Virus record (IMG/VR): IMGVR_UViG_3300043331_000168 | Location: 1-58,673 of that record | Source: a virus | Direction: 5' to 3' (one strand) | DNA length: 58,673 nucleotides | In this document: in pieces, positions 4,020 through 53,348 of the stretch | How the letters are laid out: every line of letters begins with the position of its first letter | Numbering within the stretch: the stretch's first letter is position 1 | Program-made: the position numbers and the translations under genes | Notes under the pieces: model-generated | The model's database searches: none | Told to the model about the DNA's origin: nothing | What the model saw: the letters and a program-made list of their open reading frames with translations, nothing else

Positions 4020-4048
4020 TTGACAGCGCTGACCGCGTGAAGCATGAT
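4020..4048 (+). promoter_or_regulatory. Promoter of the DUF1376 replication operon
   Basis: Perfect -35 TTGACA (4020-4025), 17-bp spacer, -10 CATGAT (4043-4048, 4 of 6). It diverges from the recT promoter. There is no CTTAGTSACTAAG element. The spacer begins with AGCGCTGACCGCGT, nearly identical to the spacer of the TerL promoter. The ATG at 4058 follows after 9 bases. Confidence 0.6.
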
Positions 4049-4057
4049 GCCCGACCC

Positions 4058-4969
4058 ATGAGACTCGACTGGTTCCCGTTCTATTGGCGCGACTTCGACG
4101 ACGGGACCCGTGAGATGACCAACGAGGAGGTCGGCGCGTATTGGCGCCTGCTGTACTACCAATGGCAGTACGGCTCCATTCCGGCAGACAAAGAGCTGGC
4201 CGCCAGGATCACCGGCGAGCGCTTCGACGATCGCACGTGGGCGCGTCTCCTGAGCAAGTTCGTCCCGGACAAATCCGTGCCCGGCGATCGGCTCGTGAAC
4301 CTCCGAATGCAGGCCGTTCGCAGCTCCCAGGAGGCCCGCTACGGCCGACGCATCGAATCGGCACGCCTGAACGGACAGAAGGGCGGCTTGGCCCGCGCGG
4401 AACGCTTGCGCAGCTTGGCCGGTAGCGAACCGCTTAGCGAACCTGTAGCGAATGGCCAAGCGAATCGCCAGGCATCCGCTAAGCGAAATTCAAGCAGATT
4501 AAAGAGTAAGAAAGAAGAAGACAATAAGCCTACGGGTATCTCTAGCCTTGAAGGTAATACCAGCACTGACCTTAGAGGCGCGCGCGCAAGGCACGCGCCA
4601 CCCGACTTCGATATTTCGGATGGAATCCGCACCTGGGCAGCGAAGGCGCTCCCCAGGGTCTCAGCCGAGAGCCTCGACCTGTGGATGCGCAAGGAACTGG
4701 AGAAGTTCAAGGACCATGAGTTCAACACGCCGAAGGGCAAACGGAGCTGGGAGGGCACCTTCCGCAACTGGCTGCGGCGCTGCCTCGAGATCGGCAACCT
4801 ACCGGCCGGGACCTCGGCCCGGAGCGTCGACGAGGAGAAGCACCGCGCGGAGGTCTTGAAGACGGCGGCGATTTTCAACATGACTAGACAAGGCGGCGAG
4901 GAATGGGCCGCTTTCGAGGAGCGGGTGAATGAACGCAACAAGCGGAGGCTCGAGGCCCTTGGGAAATAA
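4058..4969 (+). CDS. DUF1376-type replication initiation protein
   Basis: 303 residues from the ATG at 4058; an upstream ATG at 4037 falls inside the promoter. Residues 1-95 match DUF1376 (LDWFPFYWRDF, then EEVGAYWRLLYYQWQYGSIP), a winged-helix-like domain of phage replication proteins. Residues 115-185 are a low-complexity Ser/Lys linker. Residues 190-270 (WEGTFRNWLRRC) resemble the C-terminal region of DnaT/DnaD-type helicase recruiters. The linker DNA holds iterons at 4423-4487 and an AT-rich tract at 4486-4560, the same arrangement as the lambda origin inside gene O. No Shine-Dalgarno is present. Confidence 0.85.
   Translation: MRLDWFPFYWRDFDDGTREMTNEEVGAYWRLLYYQWQYGSIPADKELAARITGERFDDRTWARLLSKFVPDKSVPGDRLVNLRMQAVRSSQEARYGRRIESARLNGQKGGLARAERLRSLAGSEPLSEPVANGQANRQASAKRNSSRLKSKKEEDNKPTGISSLEGNTSTDLRGARARHAPPDFDISDGIRTWAAKALPRVSAESLDLWMRKELEKFKDHEFNTPKGKRSWEGTFRNWLRRCLEIGNLPAGTSARSVDEEKHRAEVLKTAAIFNMTRQGGEEWAAFEERVNERNKRRLEALGK
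4423..4487 (+). repeat. Iteron array 1 (TAGCGAA), inside the replication gene
   Basis: Copies start at 4423 (TAGCGAA), 4435 (TAGCGAA), 4446 (TAGCGAA), 4458 (AAGCGAA) and 4481 (AAGCGAA). Spacings are 12, 11, 12 and 23 bp, close to one or two helical turns and not a multiple of 3, so the repeat is in the DNA rather than the protein. The 18 bp 4422-4439 recur exactly at 21741-21758. Confidence 0.8.
4486..4560. other. AT-rich tract beside iterons, candidate unwinding element
   Basis: By eye the first 50 bases are only about one-third G+C in a genome that is otherwise clearly GC-rich. They run straight on from the last iteron. Iterons plus an AT-rich tract inside the initiator gene are the layout of a lambdoid replication origin. 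This is an inference from position and composition. Confidence 0.55.
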
Positions 4970-18958: not shown

Positions 18959-19305
18959 TGCGCTGCCCGCGAGAGTGGGAGATTTACCGCGACCAACGTC
19001 TAGGCCGGGGCGACACATGCAACGGCGCACTTCGCTTGCCGGCGCGCAACATGCAGATTATTTTCTCGAATGGCATGGGTTGGGAACACGTTTCAGTGTC
19101 GTGCAAGACGCGCTGCCCGAGCTGGGAAGAAATGGCCGAGATCAAGCGACGCTTTTGGCAGCCGGATGACGTCGTGATGCAACTCCACGTGGCGGACAAG
19201 GATCACATCAACTGCCATCCGTTTTGTCTCCACTTGTGGCGGCCATTGGATGCGCAAATACCTGTGCCGCCGGGGATTATGGTCGGGCCGCATGTCGCAG
19301 CGTAA
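18958..19305 (+). CDS. Conserved phage protein (GWEHVSVS family)
   Basis: 115 residues from the ATG at 18958, sharing one base with the previous stop. The core GMGWEHVSVS, CPSWEEMAEIKRRFW, VVMQLHVAD and CLHLWRP is a well conserved phage family (I recall the name DUF7694, not certain). Phage genomes often carry it as a stand-alone gene. Function unknown. Confidence 0.75.
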   Translation: MRCPREWEIYRDQRLGRGDTCNGALRLPARNMQIIFSNGMGWEHVSVSCKTRCPSWEEMAEIKRRFWQPDDVVMQLHVADKDHINCHPFCLHLWRPLDAQIPVPPGIMVGPHVAA

Positions 19306-20023
19306 ACCCATCGCAGCGCTGCTCGAGGAGGTCACGCGGCCGCCGCCGCCCAAGCGTCCGCCGGAGCGCAAGCGAAAGAAGAAGCTCCAACTCCGCCGCG
19401 GGCCACCTGTCGTGAAGCGCAAGCAGCTCGATCTCGAGGAGGAGATGATCCGGCGTTTCTGCCATGCGCTCCTATTCGAGTGCGGGTTCAACGCCACAGA
19501 CGCATATCTCAAGGTCGATCCGACGGTTACGCGCGGGAGTGCGGGCACTATAGCCGCCCGCCTGTTGAGGAGTGTTCGGGTCCAAAGCAAGCTCGCCGAA
19601 ATTATTAATACCGCCAAAGCGCGAGACGGGCTCGACCAAGCCAAGATCATCGCCATTTGGAACGCCATGAGCGATGCGAATATCCTCGACTACTACGACG
19701 AAGACAAAGACGGCCGGCTCGTGCTCACGAAGCTCAAAAGGCTGCCGATCGAGAAGCAGCAGAACATCGCACAGATCGAAGTCACAACGGACACGATCAA
19801 CGACATGACCGTTCAGCAGCGCGTGAAGCTCAAGCTCATCGACCGCAAGAGCGTGACCGATTCCATGGCGCGCGCGGCGGGCATGTTCGGCGATCTCGGT
19901 AAGCCGCCCGAGGACGACGGTGACATCGCGAAGGCGATCGAGGAAGGCTTCGAGCGCGTCCGCAAAGCAATGGGCGGCAAGACGTTCGACGGCAAGACCG
20001 GCGAGGAGGTCATTGATGTCTGA
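19292..20023 (+). CDS. terS: Terminase small subunit
   Basis: 243 residues from the ATG at 19292; overlaps the previous gene by 14 bases. A basic N-terminus (residues 20-50) precedes a helix-turn-helix-like segment, FCHALLFECGFNATDAYLKV, followed by GTIAARLLRSVRVQSKL, which is the signature of Terminase_2-type small subunits. The C-terminal half is helical and should form the oligomer. It would recognise the packaging site and pass DNA to TerL, whose gene is 2 kb downstream. Confidence 0.82.
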   Translation: MSQRKPIAALLEEVTRPPPPKRPPERKRKKKLQLRRGPPVVKRKQLDLEEEMIRRFCHALLFECGFNATDAYLKVDPTVTRGSAGTIAARLLRSVRVQSKLAEIINTAKARDGLDQAKIIAIWNAMSDANILDYYDEDKDGRLVLTKLKRLPIEKQQNIAQIEVTTDTINDMTVQQRVKLKLIDRKSVTDSMARAAGMFGDLGKPPEDDGDIAKAIEEGFERVRKAMGGKTFDGKTGEEVIDV

Positions 20024-20462: not shown

Positions 20463-20689
20463 CAACCTTGGCCGAGCAGATCGCGTGCGTGCAGCGTGAG
20501 ATTCAGATGCGCCAGCGGGTCTATCCGGGGCTCATCGACCGACGCAAGATGCGGCCCGAGGCAGCCGATCGCGAGATCGAGACCATGGTCGACGTCGAGC
20601 GCTCGCTCGTCATACTCCAGCAGATTGCCGCGGGGCTGCCGCAACACGAGAAAACGGCGGAATTGCTCAAGGAGATGGGGCTCGCGTGA
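20459..20689 (+). CDS. Small conserved phage protein
   Basis: 76 residues, ATGA overlap. The pattern LAEQIACVQREIQMRQRVYP followed by a basic turn and a long helix (EIETMVDVERSLVILQQIA) is common in phages as a small protein next to replication or packaging genes. It is fully helical and probably a dimer. Function unknown. Confidence 0.75.
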   Translation: MTTLAEQIACVQREIQMRQRVYPGLIDRRKMRPEAADREIETMVDVERSLVILQQIAAGLPQHEKTAELLKEMGLA

Positions 20690-20937
20690 GTACCGGAATG
20701 CGTTGCTACTGCGGCGGCAATACGTGTGTCATCGACACGCGACCGCAAACGAACATGCGCGTGCGGCGCCGGCGCAAGTGCCGCAAATGCGGCGCGCGGT
20801 TCTCGACGGTCGAGGTCGAGGCGCGCACGCTGACCGCGCTCATCAAATGCCGGGACGCGCTCGATCGGCTTTACTTTGACCGCGCCAAATGGGGGCGCCG
20901 AGTGGAGGATCATGGAGATATTCGAGTGGCACGTTGA
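20686..20937 (+). CDS. NrdR-like zinc-ribbon protein
   Basis: 83 residues from a GTG with GTGA overlap. Residues 7-45 match the zinc ribbon of NrdR-like regulators: MRCYCGGNTCVIDTRP, RRRRKCRKCGARFSTVE. NrdR normally has an ATP-cone after this; here only about 35 residues follow, so it is a stand-alone ribbon. It may bind DNA. Phage small proteins of this type are common; the target is unknown. Confidence 0.75.
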   Translation: MSTGMRCYCGGNTCVIDTRPQTNMRVRRRRKCRKCGARFSTVEVEARTLTALIKCRDALDRLYFDRAKWGRRVEDHGDIRVAR

Positions 20938-21226: not shown

Positions 21227-21456
21227 AGAACGTCAAAACCCGCGACTTCGGCGGTAAGCTCTCGCCCTCTCAGGTGCTCATCGACGTGATGCAATACACC
21301 GACGAGGCTAAGACGCTCGTGGTCGTGTTCATCGACAAGGACGATTGCATCAACACCGCATGGGCCGATGGTGCGCTCTCGCAGCGCGTCGGGCTCTGCG
21401 ACATCGCGAAGCACCGCATGATCGACCTTGCCTGGCGAGATGAAGAAGCCAAGTGA
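21223..21456 (+). CDS. Hypothetical protein
   Basis: 77 residues, ATGA overlap. Central strand pair (KTLVVVFIDKDDCINTAWAD) then a helix with SQRVGLCDIAKHRMIDLAW. No family recognised. Confidence 0.65.
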   Translation: MKNVKTRDFGGKLSPSQVLIDVMQYTDEAKTLVVVFIDKDDCINTAWADGALSQRVGLCDIAKHRMIDLAWRDEEAK

Positions 21457-21733
21457 GCGCCGCGGCCGGCTGATCGAGTTCCGTCTTGGTCACCGCATGG
21501 CTGAGGCCGGCGAGAAGCTCGACCCCAACGCTTCGAAGACCTGGCAGCTCGGCTACAACTACGCGCGCCGCACGCTCGCGATGCGGGCCTGGTCGCACAA
21601 GCACAATCGCGCCTACGTCTTCGACGGCCCGTTCCCGGCCGAGGATCCGCTGCCCGAGTCGCCGGCCCAGGTCGAGCTATGGCTCAAGTCAAACGAGAGG
21701 CTGCTCGTAGCGATTGGCTTAGCGAATCCCTAG
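21440..21733 (+). CDS. Hypothetical protein; its 3' end carries the start of iteron array 2
   Basis: 97 residues from the ATG at 21440; overlaps the previous gene by 17 bases. Basic N-terminus (KKPSERRGRLIEFRLGHRM), then a tyrosine/arginine-rich segment (TWQLGYNYARRTLAMRAW). The final codons contain the first iterons of the array. No family recognised. Confidence 0.65.
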   Translation: MKKPSERRGRLIEFRLGHRMAEAGEKLDPNASKTWQLGYNYARRTLAMRAWSHKHNRAYVFDGPFPAEDPLPESPAQVELWLKSNERLLVAIGLANP

Positions 21734-21783
21734 CGAACTTGTAGCGAACCGCTTAGCGGATGCCTAGCGAATCAGGTGGCGAA
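21708..21783 (+). repeat. Iteron array 2 (TAGCGAA), seven copies
   Basis: Copies begin at 21708, 21720, 21731, 21742, 21754, 21765 and 21777: four perfect TAGCGAA and three with one change (TAGCGAT, TAGCGGA, TGGCGAA). Spacings are 12, 11, 11, 12, 11, 12, an average of 11.5 bp. The 18-mer 21741-21758 is identical to 4422-4439 in array 1. The sixth copy coincides with the -35 of the promoter of gene 21802-22005. Confidence 0.88.
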
Positions 21784-21793
21784 TCGCTACAAT
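21765..21793 (+). promoter_or_regulatory. Promoter overlapping iteron array 2
   Basis: -10 TACAAT (21788-21793, 5 of 6) with a weak -35 TAGCGA (21765-21770) 17 bp upstream, which is part of an iteron. The ATG at 21802 follows 8 bases later with no Shine-Dalgarno. An iteron-binding protein would cover the -35, giving a simple feedback switch. Confidence 0.5.
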
Positions 21794-21801
21794 GCGCGCC
21801 C

Positions 21802-22005
21802 ATGCGTGTCTACATCGTCACTGGCAACCGTCGGCAGTTCCACGACTGCGTCCGCAAGCTCGGGCTGCACGAGGCGGCCGCGGTCTACGTAGAGCGCGTC
21901 GAGGATCTCGAGGCCGACGGCTTCGTGGTGCTGTACGGCGACTATGCGCGCAACCCCGCGGCGCCGGCTGCGGAGCGTTTGCAGCGCGCGCGGCGCGCAG
22001 CGTAG
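21802..22005 (+). CDS. Small protein downstream of iteron array 2
   Basis: 67 residues from the ATG at 21802. It begins with a strand, MRVYIVTGNRRQFHDCVRK, then VERVEDLEADGFVVLYGDYA, an alpha-beta pattern like a small nucleotide-binding or Rossmann-type half-domain, and ends in an Arg/Ala-rich helix. No family is recognised. Its own promoter is merged with the iteron array, so its level is probably set by the array-binding protein. Confidence 0.6.
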   Translation: MRVYIVTGNRRQFHDCVRKLGLHEAAAVYVERVEDLEADGFVVLYGDYARNPAAPAAERLQRARRAA

Positions 22006-22030
22006 ACACTAAGCGCTGATTGCGTACACT
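22003..22030 (+). promoter_or_regulatory. Candidate promoter of terL
   Basis: -35 TAGACA (22003-22008, 5 of 6), 16-bp spacer, -10 TACACT (22025-22030, 4 of 6). The spacer contains AGCGCTGATTGCGT, nearly the same as in the DUF1376 promoter. An operator-like CGTAGACACTAAG (11 of 13) lies at 22001-22013. The GTG start at 22038 follows 7 bases after the -10. Confidence 0.5.
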
Positions 22031-22037
22031 GCGGCTC

Positions 22038-23513
22038 GTGGCCGCGGTTCTTAAACCCCCGCTCGTCGAGGCGATCCTCAAATACTCGCACGACCCGTAT
22101 GGGTTCGTGATGTTCGTGTTCCCGTGGGGCAAGGCGGGCACGTCGCTCGAGAAAGAGACCGGCCCCGACGTGTGGCAGACGACGGTGCTCAGGCTCATCG
22201 AGCAGGCGCTCAAGCGCAAGGGCGTGTTCGCCGCGGTCGCGCGCGCGGCTTTGCGTCTCGCGGTCTCCTCGGGGCACGGTGTCGGGAAGACCGCGCTCGT
22301 CGCGTGGCTCGTGCTGTGGTTCATCTCGACGCGCCCCAACCCGCAGATCGTCGTCACGGCCAACACCAAGACGCAGCTCACGACGAAGACCTGGCGCGAG
22401 CTGGCCAAGTGGCACGAGCTGGCCGTCCACAAGCACTGGTTCGATTGGTCGGCGACCCAGTTCAAGATGAAGCACCGGCCGGCTACGTGGTTTGCGACCG
22501 CGGTGCCGTGGTCCGAGCACAACGCCACCGCGTTCGCCGGCACGCACGAGCGCCACGTGCTGCTCATCTTCGACGAGGCGAGCGAGATCTCGGACCTGAT
22601 TTGGGAGACGGCCGAAGGCGCCATGAGCACGGGCTCCGATGACGGCAACACCGCTATCTGGCTCGCGTTCGGCAACCCGACGGTGAACACGGGCCGCTTC
22701 CGGCAGTGCTGGACCAAGTTCCGCCGCTGGTGGGTCACGCTCAACGTCGACGCTCGGCAGGCCAAGAAGGCCGACAAGCAGTGGATCAAGGAGATCATCG
22801 ACGCTTGGGGCGAGGACCACGACTACACGCGCGTTCGCGTCAAGGGCGAGTTCCCGCGCGTCGGCGCCCGGCAATTCATCGGCAACGATCTCGTCGAGGA
22901 GGCGATTGCCCGCACGATCGACGAGCGCACGATCCCGGCCTCGATCCCGAAGCTCATGGGCGTCGACGTCGCGCGCCAGGGCACGAATCAGACCGTCATC
23001 ACGCGCCGGCGCGGCCGCAAGCTCTACAAGGAAATCATCAAGCTGCGCGTCCCGGATCTCATGCAGGTCGCCAACGCCGTCGGCCACGAGATCAACGAGT
23101 GGAGCCCCGACGTCGTGTTCATCGACGCGACCGGCATGGGCGCGGGCGTGTTCGATCGGCTCGTGCAGCTCGGCTATACCAACGTGGTCGCGGTCTACTC
23201 GGGCGATCAGAAGTCCGTGAGCCAGCCCGAAGTGCACTACAACGTGCGCATCGAGATGTGGGCGCGCATGAAGGAGTGGCTCAAGACCGCCGACATTCCC
23301 GACGACCGCGAGCTATCCGAGGACCTCATCGGCCCCGAGCTGCACTACGACGACAAGATGCGAATGCGGCTCGAGCGCAAGCAGGACATGGAGAAGCGCG
23401 GCTTGCCGTCGCCGGACACGGCTGACTCGGTCGCGCTCACGTTCGCATTCCCCGTGCCGCTCAAGCCGACCGACGAGGGCTCCATGCAGCAGACCGAGCC
23501 CGAGGTCGCATGA
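22038..23513 (+). CDS. terL: Terminase large subunit
   Basis: 491 residues from the GTG at 22038. The ATPase has Walker A SGHGVGKT at 78-85 and Walker B LLIFDEASE with D179 and E180. The nuclease domain begins at GVDVARQG (D310), followed by VVFIDATGMGAG and a C-terminal TADSVALTFAF segment. It drives genome packaging into the prohead at the portal and cuts the concatemer. No Shine-Dalgarno precedes the start. Upstream TTG codons exist but lie in the promoter. Confidence 0.93.
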   Translation: MAAVLKPPLVEAILKYSHDPYGFVMFVFPWGKAGTSLEKETGPDVWQTTVLRLIEQALKRKGVFAAVARAALRLAVSSGHGVGKTALVAWLVLWFISTRPNPQIVVTANTKTQLTTKTWRELAKWHELAVHKHWFDWSATQFKMKHRPATWFATAVPWSEHNATAFAGTHERHVLLIFDEASEISDLIWETAEGAMSTGSDDGNTAIWLAFGNPTVNTGRFRQCWTKFRRWWVTLNVDARQAKKADKQWIKEIIDAWGEDHDYTRVRVKGEFPRVGARQFIGNDLVEEAIARTIDERTIPASIPKLMGVDVARQGTNQTVITRRRGRKLYKEIIKLRVPDLMQVANAVGHEINEWSPDVVFIDATGMGAGVFDRLVQLGYTNVVAVYSGDQKSVSQPEVHYNVRIEMWARMKEWLKTADIPDDRELSEDLIGPELHYDDKMRMRLERKQDMEKRGLPSPDTADSVALTFAFPVPLKPTDEGSMQQTEPEVA

Positions 23514-29752: not shown

Positions 29753-32098
29753 ATGTTCACGCCAGACGACCCGAGGCACCAAGCGCCCCTCGAGAGCGGG
29801 CTCGAAGACATGCCTCCGTCCGAGGAAGTTCCGCTTCGGTTTGCCGAGACCACCGAGCATCTCGATTGGCTGTCGATCGCGCGGGCCGTGTACCAAGCAT
29901 CCGACGATTGGTTCTCGACGTCGCTGCGCGTCATGCTCGAACGGTCGCTATCGAACTTTCGCGGCGTGCATCCGCCAGGCTCGAAGTACCACCAGGAGCA
30001 GTACCTCAAAAAGTCGCGGCTGTTCCGACCGAAAACGCGCGGCGCGATTCGACGCGGCGAAGCGGGCCACGCAATCGCGTTCTTTTCGACGCAGGACATC
30101 GTTCACTGCACGGCGCGCGACGAGACCGACGAGCGCCAACTGCTCGCGGCCGAGATCCACAACGAGCTGGTCAACGAGCGCTTGAACGACCCGATGCAGC
30201 ACTGGTTCAAGACGCTCATCGGCGGCGCGCAGGATGCCATGACGATCGGCACCGTGATCTCGAAGCAGTGCTGGGACTTCGAGATGGCCGAGGTCGAGGT
30301 TGACTACGAGTACGAGGAGCTGGACATTGAAGGGCGCACGATCGTGCAACAAGAGCGCGCCATGGAGAGCCGCGTGCTCGTCGACCGACCGAGCTGCAAG
30401 ATCATCCCGATCGAGAACTTCCGACTCGACCCCGCGGCCGACTGGCTCGACCCGGTCAACAGCTCGCCCTATCTGATCGAGATGCAGCCTACGTATATCT
30501 ACGTAATTCAGGAGCGCATTTCTAAGGGTAAGTACCTACCCGTCGCGCGCGATCTCATGGGCGCGGCGATCCACCAGGATTGGGATTCGATTCGCAAGGC
30601 TCGTGAAGGCGGCGCACGGCTCGATAAGTACGACAACGATAGCTCGGTGCGCGATCACATGATCGCCTGGGTGCATCATCACATCGTGCATCGGTGGGGT
30701 GTCGATTGGGTCTACGACACGCTCGGGACCGAGATCATGCTCAGCAAGGAGCCCATTCCGATCGAGGACTACTACGCGCACTCGCACACCTATAACCGCC
30801 CGTATGTCATGGGCAACGCGATCATCGAGGCACACAAGAATTACCCAGGCGGCATCCCGCAGCTCATCGAGGACCTTCAAGAAGAAGCGAACGACATCGC
30901 GAACTTGCGCATCGACAACGTGCGCGCCGCGCTCAATCCGCGGTGGATTGTGCGCCGCGGCTCCGGCGTCGACGCGCGCGGACTGATTCGCAACGTGCAT
31001 TCCGGCGTGACGTATGCGACGAACGTGGCCAACGATATTCGCGAGCTACGCGCGCAGGACGTGACGCGCTCGGCCTACGAGGAGCAGAACCGCATCGACC
31101 TCGACATTGATGGGGTCATAGGCACATTCTCTGGAAGCTCGATCCAGGCGAACCGCTCGGTTGGCGAGACCGTCGGCGGCATGAACTTGCTCTCGGCCGA
31201 CGCCAACAAGCTCGAGGAGTACCTGATTCGCACGGTCACCGAGACCTGGGTCGAAGGGGTCATGCGCCAATTCGTGGCCATGGAAGCGGCTTACGAGAGC
31301 GACGACAGAATACTCTCCGTCGTGGCTTCGCGGCTTAAAACCGACGTCGACACCGTGCTCGACGTGATCCGCGAGCCCATCAATGTGCGTTGTAACGTCG
31401 GCTTCAACGCGACCAACCCGCAAAAGCGCATCGAGAAGCTCTCGATCGGGCTCGCTACGATCTCTGCCTACATGCCGGACGTGATTGCGGAATTGGACCG
31501 GCGCGAAGTCGTCAAAGAAGTATTCGGGGCGATCGGGCACAAAGACGGCAGCCGATTCTTTCCTGGGCTGTACGATGAGGAGCAGGACCCGCGCATCGTG
31601 GCGCTCGAGCAGCAGATCCAGCAGCTTCAGCAGCTCCTACAGCCGAAGCTCCTCGAGTCGCAGACCAAGGTCGAGGTCGCGAATATCGGCGCCGAGACCA
31701 AACGCTTCGAGATCATCACGAAGAACGATCTCGAGATGCTCAAGCTCAGGCACAGCACGACCCAGCTCGCCTTGCAGAGCCGGCTCGATCAAGTCGATGC
31801 GCAGCTCAAGATCGAGGAGAGCGACCGCAAGCGCCGCGAGCTGTATCTCGCGCGCGAAGCGCTCTCGCACGAGATCCAGGAGTCGAACCGCCGCTTCAAC
31901 CTCGAGGTCGCGAAACTCCGGCAGCAGGACCAAAGCGAGAAGCGCGAACTCAAGGCCAAGGGCGGCGAGAAAGGCGCGCCAAAAACCAACGGCAAGGGCG
32001 GCCCGTCGGCCATGGCGATCCCCGGCACCGCGGGCGTCATGGCGCGCGACCAGTTCGGCATGGTGCCTGGGAAAAGCGACGGCATCGCGCCGCCGTGA
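29753..32098 (+). CDS. Portal protein (podovirus type)
   Basis: 781 residues, the size of podovirus portals. N-terminal DWFSTSLRVMLERSLSNFRG; the clip/stem region around 130-240 with HWFKTLIGGAQDAMTIGTVI; conserved HAHTYNRPYVMGNAI-like part near 345; and a long C-terminal coiled coil (600-730) that should form the barrel. It makes the dodecameric DNA gate of the capsid and docks TerL. It is the first of the head genes, upstream of scaffold and capsid. Confidence 0.85.
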   Translation: MFTPDDPRHQAPLESGLEDMPPSEEVPLRFAETTEHLDWLSIARAVYQASDDWFSTSLRVMLERSLSNFRGVHPPGSKYHQEQYLKKSRLFRPKTRGAIRRGEAGHAIAFFSTQDIVHCTARDETDERQLLAAEIHNELVNERLNDPMQHWFKTLIGGAQDAMTIGTVISKQCWDFEMAEVEVDYEYEELDIEGRTIVQQERAMESRVLVDRPSCKIIPIENFRLDPAADWLDPVNSSPYLIEMQPTYIYVIQERISKGKYLPVARDLMGAAIHQDWDSIRKAREGGARLDKYDNDSSVRDHMIAWVHHHIVHRWGVDWVYDTLGTEIMLSKEPIPIEDYYAHSHTYNRPYVMGNAIIEAHKNYPGGIPQLIEDLQEEANDIANLRIDNVRAALNPRWIVRRGSGVDARGLIRNVHSGVTYATNVANDIRELRAQDVTRSAYEEQNRIDLDIDGVIGTFSGSSIQANRSVGETVGGMNLLSADANKLEEYLIRTVTETWVEGVMRQFVAMEAAYESDDRILSVVASRLKTDVDTVLDVIREPINVRCNVGFNATNPQKRIEKLSIGLATISAYMPDVIAELDRREVVKEVFGAIGHKDGSRFFPGLYDEEQDPRIVALEQQIQQLQQLLQPKLLESQTKVEVANIGAETKRFEIITKNDLEMLKLRHSTTQLALQSRLDQVDAQLKIEESDRKRRELYLAREALSHEIQESNRRFNLEVAKLRQQDQSEKRELKAKGGEKGAPKTNGKGGPSAMAIPGTAGVMARDQFGMVPGKSDGIAPP

Positions 32099-33941: not shown

Positions 33942-34934
33942 ATGTCAGGTCAAGTTTGGGCCGTCAATTCACTCGGCGGCTTCATGTATTCCGACGAATT
34001 GTCGAACGTGCTGCGCACGGCGCTCCAGCCCGTGGTGCGGTTCCGGCAGTTCTGCGACGCGAAGGACGCGATCGACAAGGGGCTCGGCAAGGGCAACAAG
34101 TTCCACTGGGACGTGTTCTCCGAGGTTCAAGACGGTGGTGGCGAGCTGGTCGAAACCGAGGCCATGCCCGAGACCAACTTCACGATCAGCCAAGGCGAGC
34201 TGACGATCACCGAGTTCGGCAATTCCGTGCCGTACACCGGCAAGCTCGACAACCTGTCGAAGCTCCCGGTCTCGGAGATCATCCACAAGGTGCTCAAGAA
34301 CGACGCGAAGATGACGCTCGACGGGTACGCGCACGCGCAGTTCGACGCCACCCCGGTGACGGTCGCTCCGACGGGCGGTAACTCGCCGACGGCCGTCACG
34401 TTCGAGGAGGGCGGCTGCACGATCACGAACGCCGTCGCGTTCGGCACCGGCCACGTCAAGGCGATCGTCGACGGCATGAAAGAGCGGAAGATCCCGCCTT
34501 ACATGAACGACGACTACTTCGCCGTCGCCTGGCCGACGACGTTCCGGCCCATGAAGAACTCGCTCGAGACGATCCACCAATACGTCGAGACGGGCTTCAC
34601 GAAGATCATGAACGGCGAGATCGGCCGTTACGAAGGCACGCGGTTCTGCGAGCAGACCAACGTCGCCAAGGGCGGCGCCGTCGACTCGCTCACGTGGAAC
34701 TTCCGCACGCCGGACCCGTGGAATGGTGGGCTCTCGGACTGGATTTTCTTCCTCGGCGAAGACACGGTCGCAGAAGCGCTCGCGATCCCCGAGGAAATCC
34801 GCGGCAAGATCCCCGGCGACTACGGTCGGTCGAAGGGCGTGGCTTGGTACTATCTCGGCGGCTTCGGCATCGTCCACGGGTCGAGCGGCGTCGCGAGCCA
34901 GGCGCGTATCGTCAAGTGGGAGAGCGCGGCCTAA
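33942..34934 (+). CDS. Major capsid protein, N4-gp56-type
   Basis: 330 residues, with GGAGG eight bases upstream. The N-terminus has VVRFRQFCDAKDAIDKG and GKGNKFHWDVFSE, then TEAMPETNFTISQGELTITE and FGNSVPYTGKLDNLS, which is the core of the N4-gp56/P22-type coat family. The C-terminal half has YYLGGFGIVHG. It forms the shell of the head. Codon use and GC are like its neighbours. Confidence 0.88.
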   Translation: MSGQVWAVNSLGGFMYSDELSNVLRTALQPVVRFRQFCDAKDAIDKGLGKGNKFHWDVFSEVQDGGGELVETEAMPETNFTISQGELTITEFGNSVPYTGKLDNLSKLPVSEIIHKVLKNDAKMTLDGYAHAQFDATPVTVAPTGGNSPTAVTFEEGGCTITNAVAFGTGHVKAIVDGMKERKIPPYMNDDYFAVAWPTTFRPMKNSLETIHQYVETGFTKIMNGEIGRYEGTRFCEQTNVAKGGAVDSLTWNFRTPDPWNGGLSDWIFFLGEDTVAEALAIPEEIRGKIPGDYGRSKGVAWYYLGGFGIVHGSSGVASQARIVKWESAA

Positions 34935-47147: not shown

Positions 47148-50100
47148 ATGGCCACGCGCCCCAGCGACATCGGGCGCGATGTGTTCGACGCCTTGACTAT
47201 TGGGCGCCGAGATCCCGCCGCTTCGTTTGACGCCGAGCGCGACCTCTCGCGCGAGGACTTCTATCTGCTCACGACGCCGGGGCGCCGGCGCCGGCAGCCA
47301 GAGCCTCCACCTGTGCTCGAGGAGGAGGAGCCGGGCGGCCTCGGCTTTGGAGACTACGCGCGCTCGATCATGACTGGCGGAGCCTCGCTCGCGCAGAGCT
47401 TCGGCTGGCTGACGCGCATGATCGGCGCCGAGCAAATCGGGACCGCGATCGAGGACCTCGGGCGCAATGCCGTTGACTACTGGAATGCGGGGCTCTCAGA
47501 CGAGGCGAAGGACGCGCTATCGCGCGAGTTCGTCCGCAAGAACGCAGAGACCGGCGAGTGGGAATGGGGCGACGCAACCCTGCACACGGTCGGGCTCATG
47601 GGAGCCCAATCGTTGCTAGGCACGGCGGCTGGCATCGGCATCGGCGGTGCTGTGACCAAGGGATTGCAGCTCGGCACGGCGGCCACGATGGCGCGGGCGC
47701 CGGCTGCCGCTTCCGCCGGCATCAAGGACGTGCTCACCTTGTTCGCGAACCCGTTTGGGCGCACGGCGCTACAAGCGGCCGCTCGAGCTGGCTCCACCCA
47801 GGCGCTCGCCAAGCTCAATCTCATCAACCGTGTGCTCGGCGCCGCGGGCTTCGGCATCGGCGAGGGGCTCGTCGGCGGAACGAGCGCGGCAGTCTCAGTC
47901 GAGAATGCGATTCGCTCGCTGCCGGTTGAGAAGCTGCTCGCGAATCCGCGCTACGCCGAGATATTCAACTCGACCGACGAGAGCATGTCCGAGCTTGAGC
48001 GCCATCAATACGCGACCGACACGATCGCGAAGGAAGCGGCGAGCCAAGCGGGTTGGCAGAGTGGCCTGCTGACGGGCCTACTCGGCGCGCCGATGGGCGC
48101 CTACTTCGGGCAGATCCTCGGCCGCAGCGGGCGGCTCGCGTCGACGCGGCTGCGTTCGATCCTCGTCGGCGCCGCCGGCGAGGCAGGCCAGGAGTTCTTG
48201 CAGTCCGGCGGCGAGTCGCTGATCTCGGGCATGACGCTCGAGCGCGTGAGCGGCGAGAACATGGAACTGTTCTCGACCGCGTTGAATCAAGCGATTGCCG
48301 GCTTGGCCGCCGGCGGCACGCTCGGTGGCGCGATCGGTGGCGTCGACTTCCAGCGGCCCGTACAACCCAAGAGACAGCCCGACCGGCAGACCGCGCTCAA
48401 GAATGCAGCGATGCGCGCAGCCACGGCGGGCGCCGATCGCGAAGCCGTCATCGGCGTCGTGCGCGCCTCCGATCAGCCGCTCATGGAGCGAATCGCCACG
48501 CTCCGCAAGCTCGAGGCCGAGGCCAACGAGCAATTCGTGGTGCCGGCGCCTCCGGCCAGGACCGAGCCCACGCCGCTCGACGTCGTCACGCCCATCGACG
48601 AGCAAGTGCACCGCGCCGCGGCCTTGAGCCCGCTCAACGATCTACCGACGCCCACGCCGGAGCAGATCGAGTCGGAGAACTACGAGGTTGCGCGCGTTGC
48701 CGGCAAAGACTTAGGGATGCGCTCGCTCGATTTCGTCGTCGAGTACCCGGCCGGGTCGGAGCGCAACGGGCTCACGATGGCGGCCCACTACGGCCGGATT
48801 CCGGGCGTAATCGGCGGCGACGGCATGTCGCTCGACTTCATGTTGGGCAAGCACCCGGAGTCGCGCACGGTCTATCTCTACCATCATCTCGACGCGCAAG
48901 GCCGTTTCAAGCAGCACAAGGCACTTGTCGGCATGGACCGCGCCGAGGCGGAAGCCTCGCTCGAAGCGTTCTATAAGCGTTCTGGTGGGCCGCGCGGGCC
49001 GATTGTCGAACTGACGCCAGAACAATTCGAGCAGTGGGCCGCGAGCGGCCAAACCGGCCGACCGCACCCGGACGCCGGCATCACGGCCGAGCGCCGGTTC
49101 GAGGGCGCCGAGACCCGCGCCATTACACCGTCAGGCGGCGCGGTAGGGGCTCGCTACGCGCTCGTCGAGCTGGGCGATCTCATCTCGAGCCACACGATCA
49201 CGGGCCGCGCGAATACCAACTTCCCGCAGGAGCTTCAGCCTCGAGACCGGAGCCGCGCCGGGTTGCGGCAGTGGATTGTCGAGACGGCCGAACGCTTCGA
49301 GCCAGCGCTCGCCGTCGAGGGCGTCTCCGCCGGCGAGGGAGCGCCCATCGTTGGGCCGGACATGATCGTGGAGTCCGGCAACGGGCGTGTCGCAGTCATC
49401 ACGAAGCTCTATCTCGATCGCTCCGACAAGTATCGCGGCTACCTCGAGCAGAACATCGAGAAGTTCGGGCTCAGCAAAGAGCAGCTCGACAAGCTCGCCC
49501 AGCCGATTCTCGTGCGGGTTCGGCAGGAGCCGATGGACATGGCCGCGCGGACCAAGTTCGCGCACGAGGCCAACCGGCCGCAGATCGCGACATTCTCCGC
49601 GACCGAGCAGGCGAACGCTGATGCGCGCACCCTGACCAACGACGAGATCGCGCTATTTCAGCCGACGGCCGAGGGCTCGGTGCTCGGGCTTTCGAATGAG
49701 CGCTTCGTGCGCGCCTTCGTCTCGAAACTCCCGGCCGCCGAGCGTGCGGGGCTCATGACCGCCGAGGGGCAGCCGACCCGGCAGCTCGCGAACCGGATCC
49801 AGGCCGCGATATTCGCGCGCGCCTACCAGGACGATCGGCTCTTGACGCTCATGGCCGAGGAAGCCGACCCGGACGTGCGCAATATCGTGGCTGCTTTGAC
49901 CTCGGCCGCGCCGACGTTCGCGCGGGCGCGCGCCGCGGGCGCGCTGGCGCAGGCCGACGTCGTGGAGCCGCTGCTCGGGGCGGTCGAGATCGTTCGGCAA
50001 ACCCGCGCGCGCGGGCAGTCCGTCGAGGAGTACCTCGGCCAGCAAGGCTTGTTCGAGTCGATCCCGCCCGAGGTCGACCGAATGGCGCGCTTCATCGACA

Positions 50101-53100
50101 AGAACATTCGGTCGTCGAAGCGCATGGGCGAGGCGTTCACGTCGATGGCCGGATTCCTCGAGTCCGAGGCGAAACGCCGCACTACGGGCGCCCTGTTCGG
50201 CGAGGAGCCCAAGCTCGATGTCGGGCTCGCGATGCAGGCCGCGAACCAGCAGATGGAGCGCACCTACGGTGCCGGCCAGGCGCAGAGCGCGATGTTTAGC
50301 CGACCGCTGCCCGAGTTCACGCGCGAACAGCTCCGGCAAGGCTTTCGTGGTGAAGCCTATCGCGGCCGAGAGTTCGTCGGGCAAGTCTACATGGTCGATG
50401 GGCGCGCCTTCGTGGCCAACGTCGAGAACGGTGTGGTGCGCTCGGCAACCGAATATGCGCCGAGTCAATTCAAGCGCTCAGGCGGCTATGACGCGCCAGG
50501 CGGGCGCGTGGACAAGTGGCAGATCGAAGATGCCGCTTTTCAAGTTCGCGAAGGCGGAGCCACCTACTCGGGCGTCGGCGAGGCTGCGCTCAACCAGCTC
50601 GATATGTTCGCCGAGGCCGAAGCTCCGCCGGCAGATAGCGTGCTGCGGTTCGTGCGCGCCAGGGGCGTGCGCACCGGCACGTTTCGGTCCTCCGTTCGCA
50701 AAGTGCAAACGCCGGAAGAAGCGGCGCACGTGCTGGCTCCGCTGCGCAAGGCCGCCCAGGAGCAGATGACCGCGCTCGTGACCGACGAGAACGGTAAGCC
50801 GCTCGCGGTGCTGCGGCACACGATCGGCACGCCGGACGCCGGCCCGGTGGTCCGCGGAATGGTGCTCGGGCAGGTGCTCAACATACCGGGCGCCAAGAAT
50901 GTCTGGTTTGCTCACAACCATCCCGGCGGGAACCCAAGCCAAACCTCGGCTGACCACGGGACAACAATCGCGCTCGATCGCTTGAGCGCTGGGACCGGGC
51001 TCAACGTCCGGGGCATGATTACGCTGGCTGCCGGCTCGAACCAGGCGACGTTCTTCGAGCCGCGCATTGAGCGCGAAATAAGATTCGATATTCCGGCTGG
51101 CCCGCGTGCTGCGACCGGCGCGGCCGAGATCCCGCACATCGGCGAGCGGCGCTTTACCCGGAGGCTCGGAGACGCGCAGCGCGAGAAGCTCACGCAAGAG
51201 AACGTCAACCAAATGCTCGCGGTCGCCGCGCCAGGCGGCGGGTCCGGGCTCATGCTGTTCGACGCGCGCCTGAATCCGACCGGCTGGATACCGATGACGG
51301 CCGCGGAGATGGGGCGCTTGCGCATCGGCTCTCAACCTAGCGCGGCGCGTGTCCTCCGCGAGATCGAGCGTACCAACGCGACCCGCGCGCTCATTCGCAC
51401 GAAAGACGCCTCGGAACGTGACGCGGCTTCCAATCTCATGAATTTCTTGGCGTGGGCGCAGGTCGACGTGTTCGACATTCTGCAAGGCGGCCGCGCTTTG
51501 AGCCGAGAAGCTCAAGGGCTCCCGCTCCTGGGTCCGGTCTATCGCTCGATTGGGCGGCCGCAAGCGCCACCGGACACGCCCACGAATCCGGTCGACCCGA
51601 GCTTGAGCCAGGAGGCGAAAGCCGCGGAGCTGCACCGGCTCGGGCTCGAGAACTTGGCTTGGGTCGAGCCGATCGTCGAGGAGATCAACGCGACCTTCGG
51701 TGTGCGCGGGCCAAGATACCGCGAGGACTACATCAAGAGCGAGCGCAGCATCATCGGCAAGGCGAACCGGCCGGGCATCTTGGCCGAAAAGCCGTGGTGG
51801 GACGTCGAGCACCTACGCGATAGCTTCCGCTTCCGTAGCGTCGTTGCGTCGGCTGATCAGGTCGAGCCGGTTTTCCGGGCGTTCCTCGAGAGGGCCGAAG
51901 CGTCCGGCCACCCGGTTCGGGTCATCAAGACCGACATCGACAAGCTCGCGCGGCCGAAAGACTGGGGCTGGCGCATGTTACCGTTCGATCTCGTGATGCC
52001 GAATGGGCAGCTCGCCGAGTATTACATCACGTTCCCGGAATTGGCCGACGCCAACGAGGGGGTCCGCTACGCCGGCAAGTACAACGGCAACGGCGGACTC
52101 CACAAGACCTTCGAGAATTGGCGCTATCGTGACGTAAACACGCTGTCCGAGGAGGAGCGGCTTGCCTTCAACGAAGACAAGACGATCAGCAAGACCGGAT
52201 ATGACTCTGCGTGGGAGGAGTTTCTAGGGCGAACGGGTCAGACGGAGGAAGCGGTTTTTGCTTCGGCGAGGAGGCTCTCAGCGGTCGCCGAGTCATTTTC
52301 GACGGCGAAATCCTCGTCTATTTCTTCGCCCGTGAGCGGCATGGGGAACTTGCCGGCCGGGAACCAAGTGCCGCCGACTTTGAGTGCCATGAACGCGCCG
52401 TCGGATACGAATATCCGCGCGCCTTCGCGTTCTCTTGCGACCAATGCGCCCATCGACGCCAGTCTAGCACAGCACGTCGAGGAAGTCCGCCAATGGCTAA
52501 GCCCATCGCTCGCGCATTTAGCCCCGGTCATCCGCGCCAACGTCGTCGCGTCTCCGCAGGATCTCCCGGACCCGACCGCGCCGCCCGACGTCGAGGGCGC
52601 GTATACCCAGGACGGGCAAGTGTGGTTCGTCGCGAGCAACCTTCCGACCCAGGAGCGTGCCCAGGCCGTCGGCCGGCACGAGGTCTTCGGCCACATGGCG
52701 ATCGAGCGTAACCCGAAGTTCAAGAAGCAGCTCGAGCGTGTCGAGGATGCGATCCGCACGGGCGGGCTCAAGAATGAAGTCGCCCAGGTCCGCGCACGTC
52801 AGGGGCTCTTGCCGCGATCGACCGAGGCCCGCGAGGTCATCGCGCTGATTGCTGAAAAGGGCGGGCGCTCGCCAATGGGCGACGTGCTCGTGTCGACGAT
52901 CCGCGCGATCGGGCTCGACCTCGGGTTCGACATGAACCTCGAGCGGCGCGATCTCGAGCGGCTCGTCCGGGTCGCGGCGAAGGGCTTGTTGCACGACGCG
53001 CGCATGGCGGCGAACTTCCGAGCCGCAATGAAGATGGCGGAAGTGACAGCGCTCGAGAAAGGCGAGCCGACCGACGAGGAGATCGTCGCCGCGATCGAGG

Positions 53101-53348
53101 CGCTCTATCCGAACGATGCGATCGACTTGACCGCGCAAATCCGGCCGCAGACCGACTACTATCAGCGCTACGTCACGGAGACGCGGCCAGCCGATATTCA
53201 GGACTTCGGCGATTTGCAGCTCGCGGAGCAGCTCGAGGTCGAGGGGGAGGGGGCCGTGGAGGTCACGCAACGCGCGCAACAAGCGTTTGAGCAGGCGCGC
53301 GATCGAGTCAAGATGCTGGAGTCGTTGCAAGAATGCCTAGCACAGTAA
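47148..53348 (+). CDS. Giant polyvalent protein (DdrB-ParB, JAB, RelA/SpoT-like, metallopeptidase)
   Basis: 2066 residues. 1-510: hydrophobic, glycine-rich and helical segments (LLGTAAGIGIGGAVTKGLQL) typical of ejection proteins. 515-640: pyrophosphatase-like polyvalent domain (GRIPGVIGGDGMSLDFMLGK, FKQHKALVGMDRAEA). 650-930: DdrB/ParB-like domain (GARYALVELGDLISSH, IVESGNGRVAVITKLYLD). 1200-1300: JAB/RadC-like site HNHPGG at 1256-1261 with H1256, H1258 and D1269 (Thr1266 replaces the usual Ser). About 1505-1690: RelA/SpoT-like NTase fold (DYIKSERSIIGKANRPG, LRDSFRFRSVVASADQVEP). 1800-1950: zinc peptidase HEVFGH at 1844-1849. Such polyvalent proteins are injected with phage DNA to act on the host or its defences. 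Confidence 0.78.
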   Translation: MATRPSDIGRDVFDALTIGRRDPAASFDAERDLSREDFYLLTTPGRRRRQPEPPPVLEEEEPGGLGFGDYARSIMTGGASLAQSFGWLTRMIGAEQIGTAIEDLGRNAVDYWNAGLSDEAKDALSREFVRKNAETGEWEWGDATLHTVGLMGAQSLLGTAAGIGIGGAVTKGLQLGTAATMARAPAAASAGIKDVLTLFANPFGRTALQAAARAGSTQALAKLNLINRVLGAAGFGIGEGLVGGTSAAVSVENAIRSLPVEKLLANPRYAEIFNSTDESMSELERHQYATDTIAKEAASQAGWQSGLLTGLLGAPMGAYFGQILGRSGRLASTRLRSILVGAAGEAGQEFLQSGGESLISGMTLERVSGENMELFSTALNQAIAGLAAGGTLGGAIGGVDFQRPVQPKRQPDRQTALKNAAMRAATAGADREAVIGVVRASDQPLMERIATLRKLEAEANEQFVVPAPPARTEPTPLDVVTPIDEQVHRAAALSPLNDLPTPTPEQIESENYEVARVAGKDLGMRSLDFVVEYPAGSERNGLTMAAHYGRIPGVIGGDGMSLDFMLGKHPESRTVYLYHHLDAQGRFKQHKALVGMDRAEAEASLEAFYKRSGGPRGPIVELTPEQFEQWAASGQTGRPHPDAGITAERRFEGAETRAITPSGGAVGARYALVELGDLISSHTITGRANTNFPQELQPRDRSRAGLRQWIVETAERFEPALAVEGVSAGEGAPIVGPDMIVESGNGRVAVITKLYLDRSDKYRGYLEQNIEKFGLSKEQLDKLAQPILVRVRQEPMDMAARTKFAHEANRPQIATFSATEQANADARTLTNDEIALFQPTAEGSVLGLSNERFVRAFVSKLPAAERAGLMTAEGQPTRQLANRIQAAIFARAYQDDRLLTLMAEEADPDVRNIVAALTSAAPTFARARAAGALAQADVVEPLLGAVEIVRQTRARGQSVEEYLGQQGLFESIPPEVDRMARFIDKNIRSSKRMGEAFTSMAGFLESEAKRRTTGALFGEEPKLDVGLAMQAANQQMERTYGAGQAQSAMFSRPLPEFTREQLRQGFRGEAYRGREFVGQVYMVDGRAFVANVENGVVRSATEYAPSQFKRSGGYDAPGGRVDKWQIEDAAFQVREGGATYSGVGEAALNQLDMFAEAEAPPADSVLRFVRARGVRTGTFRSSVRKVQTPEEAAHVLAPLRKAAQEQMTALVTDENGKPLAVLRHTIGTPDAGPVVRGMVLGQVLNIPGAKNVWFAHNHPGGNPSQTSADHGTTIALDRLSAGTGLNVRGMITLAAGSNQATFFEPRIEREIRFDIPAGPRAATGAAEIPHIGERRFTRRLGDAQREKLTQENVNQMLAVAAPGGGSGLMLFDARLNPTGWIPMTAAEMGRLRIGSQPSAARVLREIERTNATRALIRTKDASERDAASNLMNFLAWAQVDVFDILQGGRALSREAQGLPLLGPVYRSIGRPQAPPDTPTNPVDPSLSQEAKAAELHRLGLENLAWVEPIVEEINATFGVRGPRYREDYIKSERSIIGKANRPGILAEKPWWDVEHLRDSFRFRSVVASADQVEPVFRAFLERAEASGHPVRVIKTDIDKLARPKDWGWRMLPFDLVMPNGQLAEYYITFPELADANEGVRYAGKYNGNGGLHKTFENWRYRDVNTLSEEERLAFNEDKTISKTGYDSAWEEFLGRTGQTEEAVFASARRLSAVAESFSTAKSSSISSPVSGMGNLPAGNQVPPTLSAMNAPSDTNIRAPSRSLATNAPIDASLAQHVEEVRQWLSPSLAHLAPVIRANVVASPQDLPDPTAPPDVEGAYTQDGQVWFVASNLPTQERAQAVGRHEVFGHMAIERNPKFKKQLERVEDAIRTGGLKNEVAQVRARQGLLPRSTEAREVIALIAEKGGRSPMGDVLVSTIRAIGLDLGFDMNLERRDLERLVRVAAKGLLHDARMAANFRAAMKMAEVTALEKGEPTDEEIVAAIEALYPNDAIDLTAQIRPQTDYYQRYVTETRPADIQDFGDLQLAEQLEVEGEGAVEVTQRAQQAFEQARDRVKMLESLQECLAQ

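Follow-up and report, generated by a model that had tools for sequence, protein, structure and literature searches.

In Bacillus phage SPP1, the initiator gp38 binds the direct repeats of oriL, which lies within its own gene 38, and those of oriR, situated about 12-13 kb from oriL in the late region; at this second site, gp38 has been proposed to stall the replication fork and to start concatemer synthesis (PMC6316719, PMC3485210). The origin of lambda is likewise made of iterons and an AT-rich tract placed in the middle of an initiator gene (PMC7466680). Finally, RctB, from chromosome 2 of Vibrio cholerae, binds 12-mer iterons, 39-mers and a 29-mer in the rctB promoter, and represses promoters, including that of its own gene (PMC6090056).

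In this work we describe viral DNA in which iterons of one kind occur both inside a predicted initiator gene and just before the packaging genes. The stretch analyzed here (the window) spans the 58,673 bp of an entire IMG/VR record, although the record itself may be incomplete. A motif scan placed seven phased iterons of the N[A/G]GCGAA type on its plus strand at 21708-21783 (array 2), starting at 21708, 21720, 21731, 21742, 21754, 21765 and 21777; each of them has at most one mismatch to TAGCGAA, and four of the seven are exact. An earlier, sequence-only reading of this DNA had proposed seven phased copies, beginning in the end of a gene and kept by selection on DNA, and these three claims were borne out: the copies are spaced by 12, 11, 11, 12, 11 and 12 bp, the first ones overlap the 3' end of the ORF at 21428-21733, and selection acts on the DNA because the repeats fall in different reading frames at both arrays of the record (array 1 is described below). 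When the window was simulated 300 times with an order-2 Markov model, TAGCGAA chains reached two copies at most, and the de novo score for arrays of any 7-mer is 5.8 in the window, while none of 60 Markov windows exceeds 2.8. The seventh copy is also one half of an imperfect palindrome, TGGCGA-A-TCGCTA (21777-21789, no strand assigned), which ends the array and enters the -10 element discussed below. Phased arrays of this motif with the 11/12-bp phase are found at only two places in the record, array 2 and a twin situated 17.3 kb away (array 1), which was missing from the sequence-only reading and was found by motif scan of the record.

Array 1 (4423-4487, plus strand; iterons at 4423, 4435, 4446, 4458 and 4481) lies in the linker of a gene at 4037-4969, also on the plus strand, whose product was assigned from Pfam, PHROG and a structure model as a DUF1376 (PF07120) replication initiator with an N-terminal winged helix. 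The ORF scores 39.2 bits against PF07120, above the gathering score of 30.1, and matches PHROG primosomal or replication-initiation families. Its N-terminal domain was modelled as a winged helix with a pLDDT of 83.5; the closest structural neighbours of this model are winged helices such as that of ORC2, with DnaD and Rep initiator domains lower in the VIA list, and the Z of all of them is below 6. Foldseek searches with the whole model and with the domain alone gave no significant match. Used as a query against viral contigs and the phage collection, the protein found no close relatives, and its matches are weak and limited to plasmids. A gene for a RecT annealing protein neighbours the initiator gene. 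The 60-bp windows of lowest GC content in the whole record start at 4480-4500, adjoining array 1, and the AT-rich stretch delimited there by GC scan (4480-4559, no strand assigned) is likely a DNA unwinding element. With direct repeats inside the gene and an AT-rich element next to them, array 1 and this stretch together have the look of a lambda-type origin within the initiator gene. The sequence-only reading had offered array 2 as a possible second origin, a proposal that found no support: the AT-richest DNA of the record is that beside array 1, and the search for an AT-rich unwinding element at array 2, based on the GC content of the 60 bp that follow it, found none, since their 60% GC, at the 32nd percentile for the record, is an ordinary value. 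Array 2 is thus unlikely to be a second origin, strictly speaking.

Array 2 leads into a putative -10 element, TACAAT (21788-21793, plus strand), which is a good -10 box by sequence. A 17-bp spacer separates TACAAT from the sixth iteron (TAGCGA, 21765-21770), which stands at the -35 position, and the promoter has the build TAGCGAA-N5-TGGCGAATCG-C-TACAAT. The sixth copy had been taken as the -35 region of a promoter; this stands as far as position is concerned and not as to the quality of the box, as TAGCGA makes a poor -35 and a consensus sigma-70 scan, which looks for -10 and -35 boxes near consensus and 16-18 bp apart, called no promoter at 21765-21793. Directly 3' of the putative promoter lies a small gene of 67 aa (21802-22005, plus strand), possibly leaderless, and then the gene for the terminase large subunit, TerL (22020-23513, plus strand), whose start may be the GTG at 22038. 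A second promoter-like site, TAGACA-16-TACACT with a degenerate AAGCGCT within it (22003-22030, plus strand), was found before TerL by promoter scan. At 22025-22038, TACACT is followed seven bases on by the possible GTG start of TerL, an arrangement to be compared with 21788-21802; transcripts from the two sites could both be leaderless. Head genes follow further downstream, with the portal at 29753 and the major head protein at 33942. Elsewhere in the window, a 2066-residue ORF (47148-53348) matches the DarB-like antirestriction family and large families of unknown function.

The terminase small subunit, TerS, is encoded at 19250-20023 on the plus strand (phrog_51, E 2.7e-11), 1.7 kb upstream of array 2, which therefore divides the terS block from terL. 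The block between TerS and TerL also encodes, at 20686-20937, a small protein that has an NrdR-type zinc ribbon but apparently lacks the ATP-cone domain. This position of terS bears on another proposal of the sequence-only reading, namely a terminase recognition site (pac or cosB) with TerS as the binder. In at least four groups of phages, terminase genes do have AGCGAA arrays on their 5' side, as such a site would lead one to expect; nevertheless, we regard it as improbable, because pac and cosB sites are usually placed in or beside terS and array 2 is not, and because the same motif in the same phase forms the origin array of the window 17 kb away, which TerS would not explain. Furthermore, in a second phage group (see below) one palindrome is common to the packaging region and the DUF1376 gene, and the array motif is not kept among near relatives whose TerL is 91% identical.

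This second group consists of freshwater IMG/VR contigs, independent of the window, in which phased AGCGAA arrays also stand upstream of terminase genes; they surfaced as non-coding matches of a scan for AGCGAA triples, and 80 loci with the small gene of this group were collected. The gene order is small gene, terS and terL, and the small genes of the window and of the second group show no significant homology (E about 4). In a subset of members, three to four iterons in exact 11-bp phase lie 5' of the small gene and are followed by the palindrome ACCGANTCGGT, many members of this subset having further copies where the small gene ends; one array of the group sits downstream of a promoter of the TTGGCA/TATGAT type. 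In several members the terS promoter takes the form T[A/G]GCGAA-N4-AAGCGAATCG-NN-TACACT, and the terS promoters TAGCGAATGGCAAGCGAATCGGCTACACT and TGGCGAAGTGAAAGCGAATCGATTACACT match TAGCGAATCAGGTGGCGAATCGCTACAAT of the window and have the same build. The array is thus built into a promoter in two phage groups, which points to control of transcription, a role that the sequence-only reading came near to without adopting it. On the other hand, AGCGAA was discarded as a general start-codon motif in this group, its counts being equal to expectation and its start-codon contexts few. A ribosome-binding site placed between two AGCGAA copies (AAGCGAAAGGAAAGCGAATCATG) is kept across genomes (L513-L525; G051 23480, G053 17956, G055 21594), and serves a gene that lies some 3 kb 5' of terS.

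The four second-group genomes that were fully read all carry a DUF1376 gene with ACCGAA iterons in its linker, spaced by 12 and 11 bp, and the distance from this gene to the packaging array is about 8-9 kb. ACCGAA and AGCGAA can be taken as a single iteron family, since the origin array of one record (L533) mixes both in one phase. The palindrome of array 2 also has a counterpart here, the 11-bp A[GC]CGANTCG[GC]T, present three to eight times in each of these four genomes against a Markov mean of 0.05-0.4, with all of its sites confined to the DUF1376 gene and the packaging region. Across 26 records with the small gene, this DUF1376 gene was present in eight of the nine with an array and in two of the 17 without one, a co-occurrence that is supporting and not independent evidence, since the records are related by phylogeny; the two array-less records with DUF1376 have other motifs in that gene, and no packaging array. 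The pairing of an origin array with a terminase array was found only in these two phage groups, that of the window and the second one. In the comparison with relatives that had been suggested as a check, 11-bp phased arrays recur in the second group; the TerL relatives examined (L005-L084) have no comparable array upstream of TerL. The TerL relatives G001 and G002 have neither the array nor a DUF1376 gene, the latter by hmmsearch of the full sequence, a search in which four other genomes scored 1e-22 or better.

From this evidence, we put at roughly even odds (a probability of about 0.5) the reading in which array 2 is a second binding platform of the DUF1376 initiator, by which the promoter of TerL and the late genes is controlled. 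The DUF1376 protein, one of the two binders named in the sequence-only reading, is well supported as the candidate by the twin array within its gene and by the pairing in the second group; we infer its identity as binder, the activity of the promoter and the sign of regulation. In the mechanism that we propose, the initiator, with its N-terminal winged helix, would bind array 1 and open the adjoining AT-rich stretch, and replication would start. Bound to the seven repeats of array 2, the same protein would form a stack on a single face of the helix, reaching the -10 box of a promoter which, with a -10 and without a -35, would head TerL, the small gene before it and the genes for head and tail. 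There it would most likely act as an activator, so that packaging and late genes would be expressed after replication; were it to occupy the inverted pair at 21777-21789 instead, it might repress the promoter, as initiators like RctB do with theirs (PMC6090056). Activation is favoured over repression because the core promoter is incomplete. The most likely role predicted for array 2 is to couple replication to packaging-gene expression. Several observations speak against this reading: the absence of a second array from most DUF1376 phages, the second-group array placed 3' of its promoter, the partial contigs (L093, L102 and L111) in which an array stands before a complete promoter and no DUF1376 gene was seen, the array-less near relatives of these contigs, the small genes without significant homology and the Foldseek searches without a match. 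The broader proposition, that the replication initiator is itself the transcription switch for packaging and late genes, that the array replaces the -35 and that this arose in at least two distant groups, is more tentative, and we place it a little short of even odds.

A different explanation would make array 2 an operator array for some other phage or host transcription factor, its likeness to the origin being a coincidence or due to a shared host protein. Several activator families typically have direct repeats in 11-bp phase that end at the -35 position, and arrays of this kind are found before terminase genes in other phages. In three contigs (L093, L102 and L111) a complete promoter before terS-terL, TTGAAG-17-TATAAT, is immediately preceded by four repeats in 11-bp phase, and another one (L088) has four perfect repeats about 50 bp ahead of a terL-like gene; no DUF1376 gene was seen in these four contigs, all of which are partial. 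In the first three, a hairpin also precedes terS-terL beside the array and the TATAAT promoter; the same array and promoter stand before a metK-like gene in a further contig (L095). Near relatives of the three have no array. Their arrays and that of L088 indicate that the place recurs. Even so, we hold another factor to be highly improbable, since the Markov comparison leaves a negligible chance that motif and phase would match those of the origin array by accident, and since the second group shows the pairing again, together with a shared palindrome.

Arrays inside DUF1376 genes are far more widespread than the pairing. Many unrelated phages have phased arrays at the same place within this gene; the place is the rule while the sequence varies. 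L091, an otherwise different phage, has TAGCGAA repeats in its DUF1376 gene, and the genes of its family (L091/L243-L252) have TAGCGAA together with drifted variants. The AGCGAA-triple scan also reached the DUF1376 genes of L325, L332, L359, L377, L400 and others, over a GC range of 30-66%, and in named phages GTTCAACG or GTGCAAA arrays are found at the same place. Helicase or helicase-loader genes adjoin the DUF1376 gene in several phages. About 15-16 other DUF1376 phage genomes, complete or long, were scanned both de novo and by motif; all arrays found lie within the DUF1376 gene or next to it, and no genome has a second one, so the two-array arrangement is not general; the second array is likewise absent from DUF1376 genomes whose motifs fall outside the AGCGAA/ACCGAA group. 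A GTDB-wide scan for TAGCGAA triples returned mainly simple tandem repeats and no DUF1376 gene, and a profile built from five remote DUF1376 proteins was too diverse for searching. AGCGAA iterons are also associated with a different protein family (M.KRDTCIFYRSMYEAIKEL...), whose genes carry in-gene arrays of the GAAGCGAA type with an 11-bp period (L331, L343, L354, L379, L387, L402, L409, L426 and others); AGCGAA is therefore the iteron core of more than one initiator-like family.

The timing of phage packaging after replication is usually credited to dedicated late activators, antiterminators or replication-coupled clamps. If the promoter-control reading is true, the initiator would time packaging directly, and one protein and one DNA word would couple replication and packaging, which could be tested with a single protein and one 76-bp DNA fragment. 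Besides this, DUF1376, a family of "unknown function", becomes tied to a defined DNA motif and an in-gene origin, and the arrays within its genes would allow origins to be predicted in many phages and prophages.

The main rival to promoter control comes from SPP1 itself. In a site of the oriR type, the initiator bound to array 2 would stall the fork coming from array 1 and turn theta into sigma replication, yielding concatemers, and the overlap with the promoter would be secondary. The binding of gp38 both to oriL and to the distant oriR of the late region (PMC6316719, PMC3485210) provides the precedent, the two sites are 17.3 kb apart here and about 8-9 kb apart in the second group, and the RecT gene beside the initiator gene fits as well. 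We consider such a fork barrier unlikely, as SPP1 oriR has an AT-rich unwinding element of which array 2 has none, and as it leaves unexplained the exact junction of the array with a -10 box devoid of a -35, a feature that the window shares with the second-group terS promoters. A copy-control site (another proposal of the sequence-only reading), of the incA or 39-mer kind, at which array 2 would titrate the initiator or handcuff with the origin and so limit replication, agrees with the larger number of copies in array 2 than in array 1 and with the behaviour of iteron-replicon initiators, which use distant arrays and promoter-overlapping operators, RctB being an example (PMC6090056). It would explain neither the location by packaging genes in two phage groups nor the fit to the -10 box, and we rate its chances as poor.

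Compared with described systems, array 1 resembles the O/ori-lambda arrangement in its position midway through the initiator gene and in its combination of iterons with an AT-rich tract, whereas lambda has no known second O-binding array, its iterons are unlike in length and sequence, and the initiator is of the O family there and a DUF1376 protein here. RctB offers the likeness of a replication initiator that acts on the direct-repeat iterons of an origin and on a promoter; this promoter is, however, that of its own gene, while a packaging or late-gene promoter is concerned here, and the protein families are unrelated. By analogy, SPP1 is the nearest known system to the two-array layout: its initiator gene contains iterons and an AT-rich unwinding element, as at array 1, and a second direct-repeat array for the same initiator lies many kb off in the late region, as an array of the same iteron does in the window (21708-21783) and in four second-group genomes. 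The differences are that oriR is surrounded by moron genes, 3' of the terminase genes, and array 2 is in a promoter before TerL, and that the initiators are gp38 and a DUF1376 protein, likened here by the layout of their sites. Having no unwinding element and being fused to a promoter, array 2 is better described not as a proven oriR but as a variant of the two-site initiator system.
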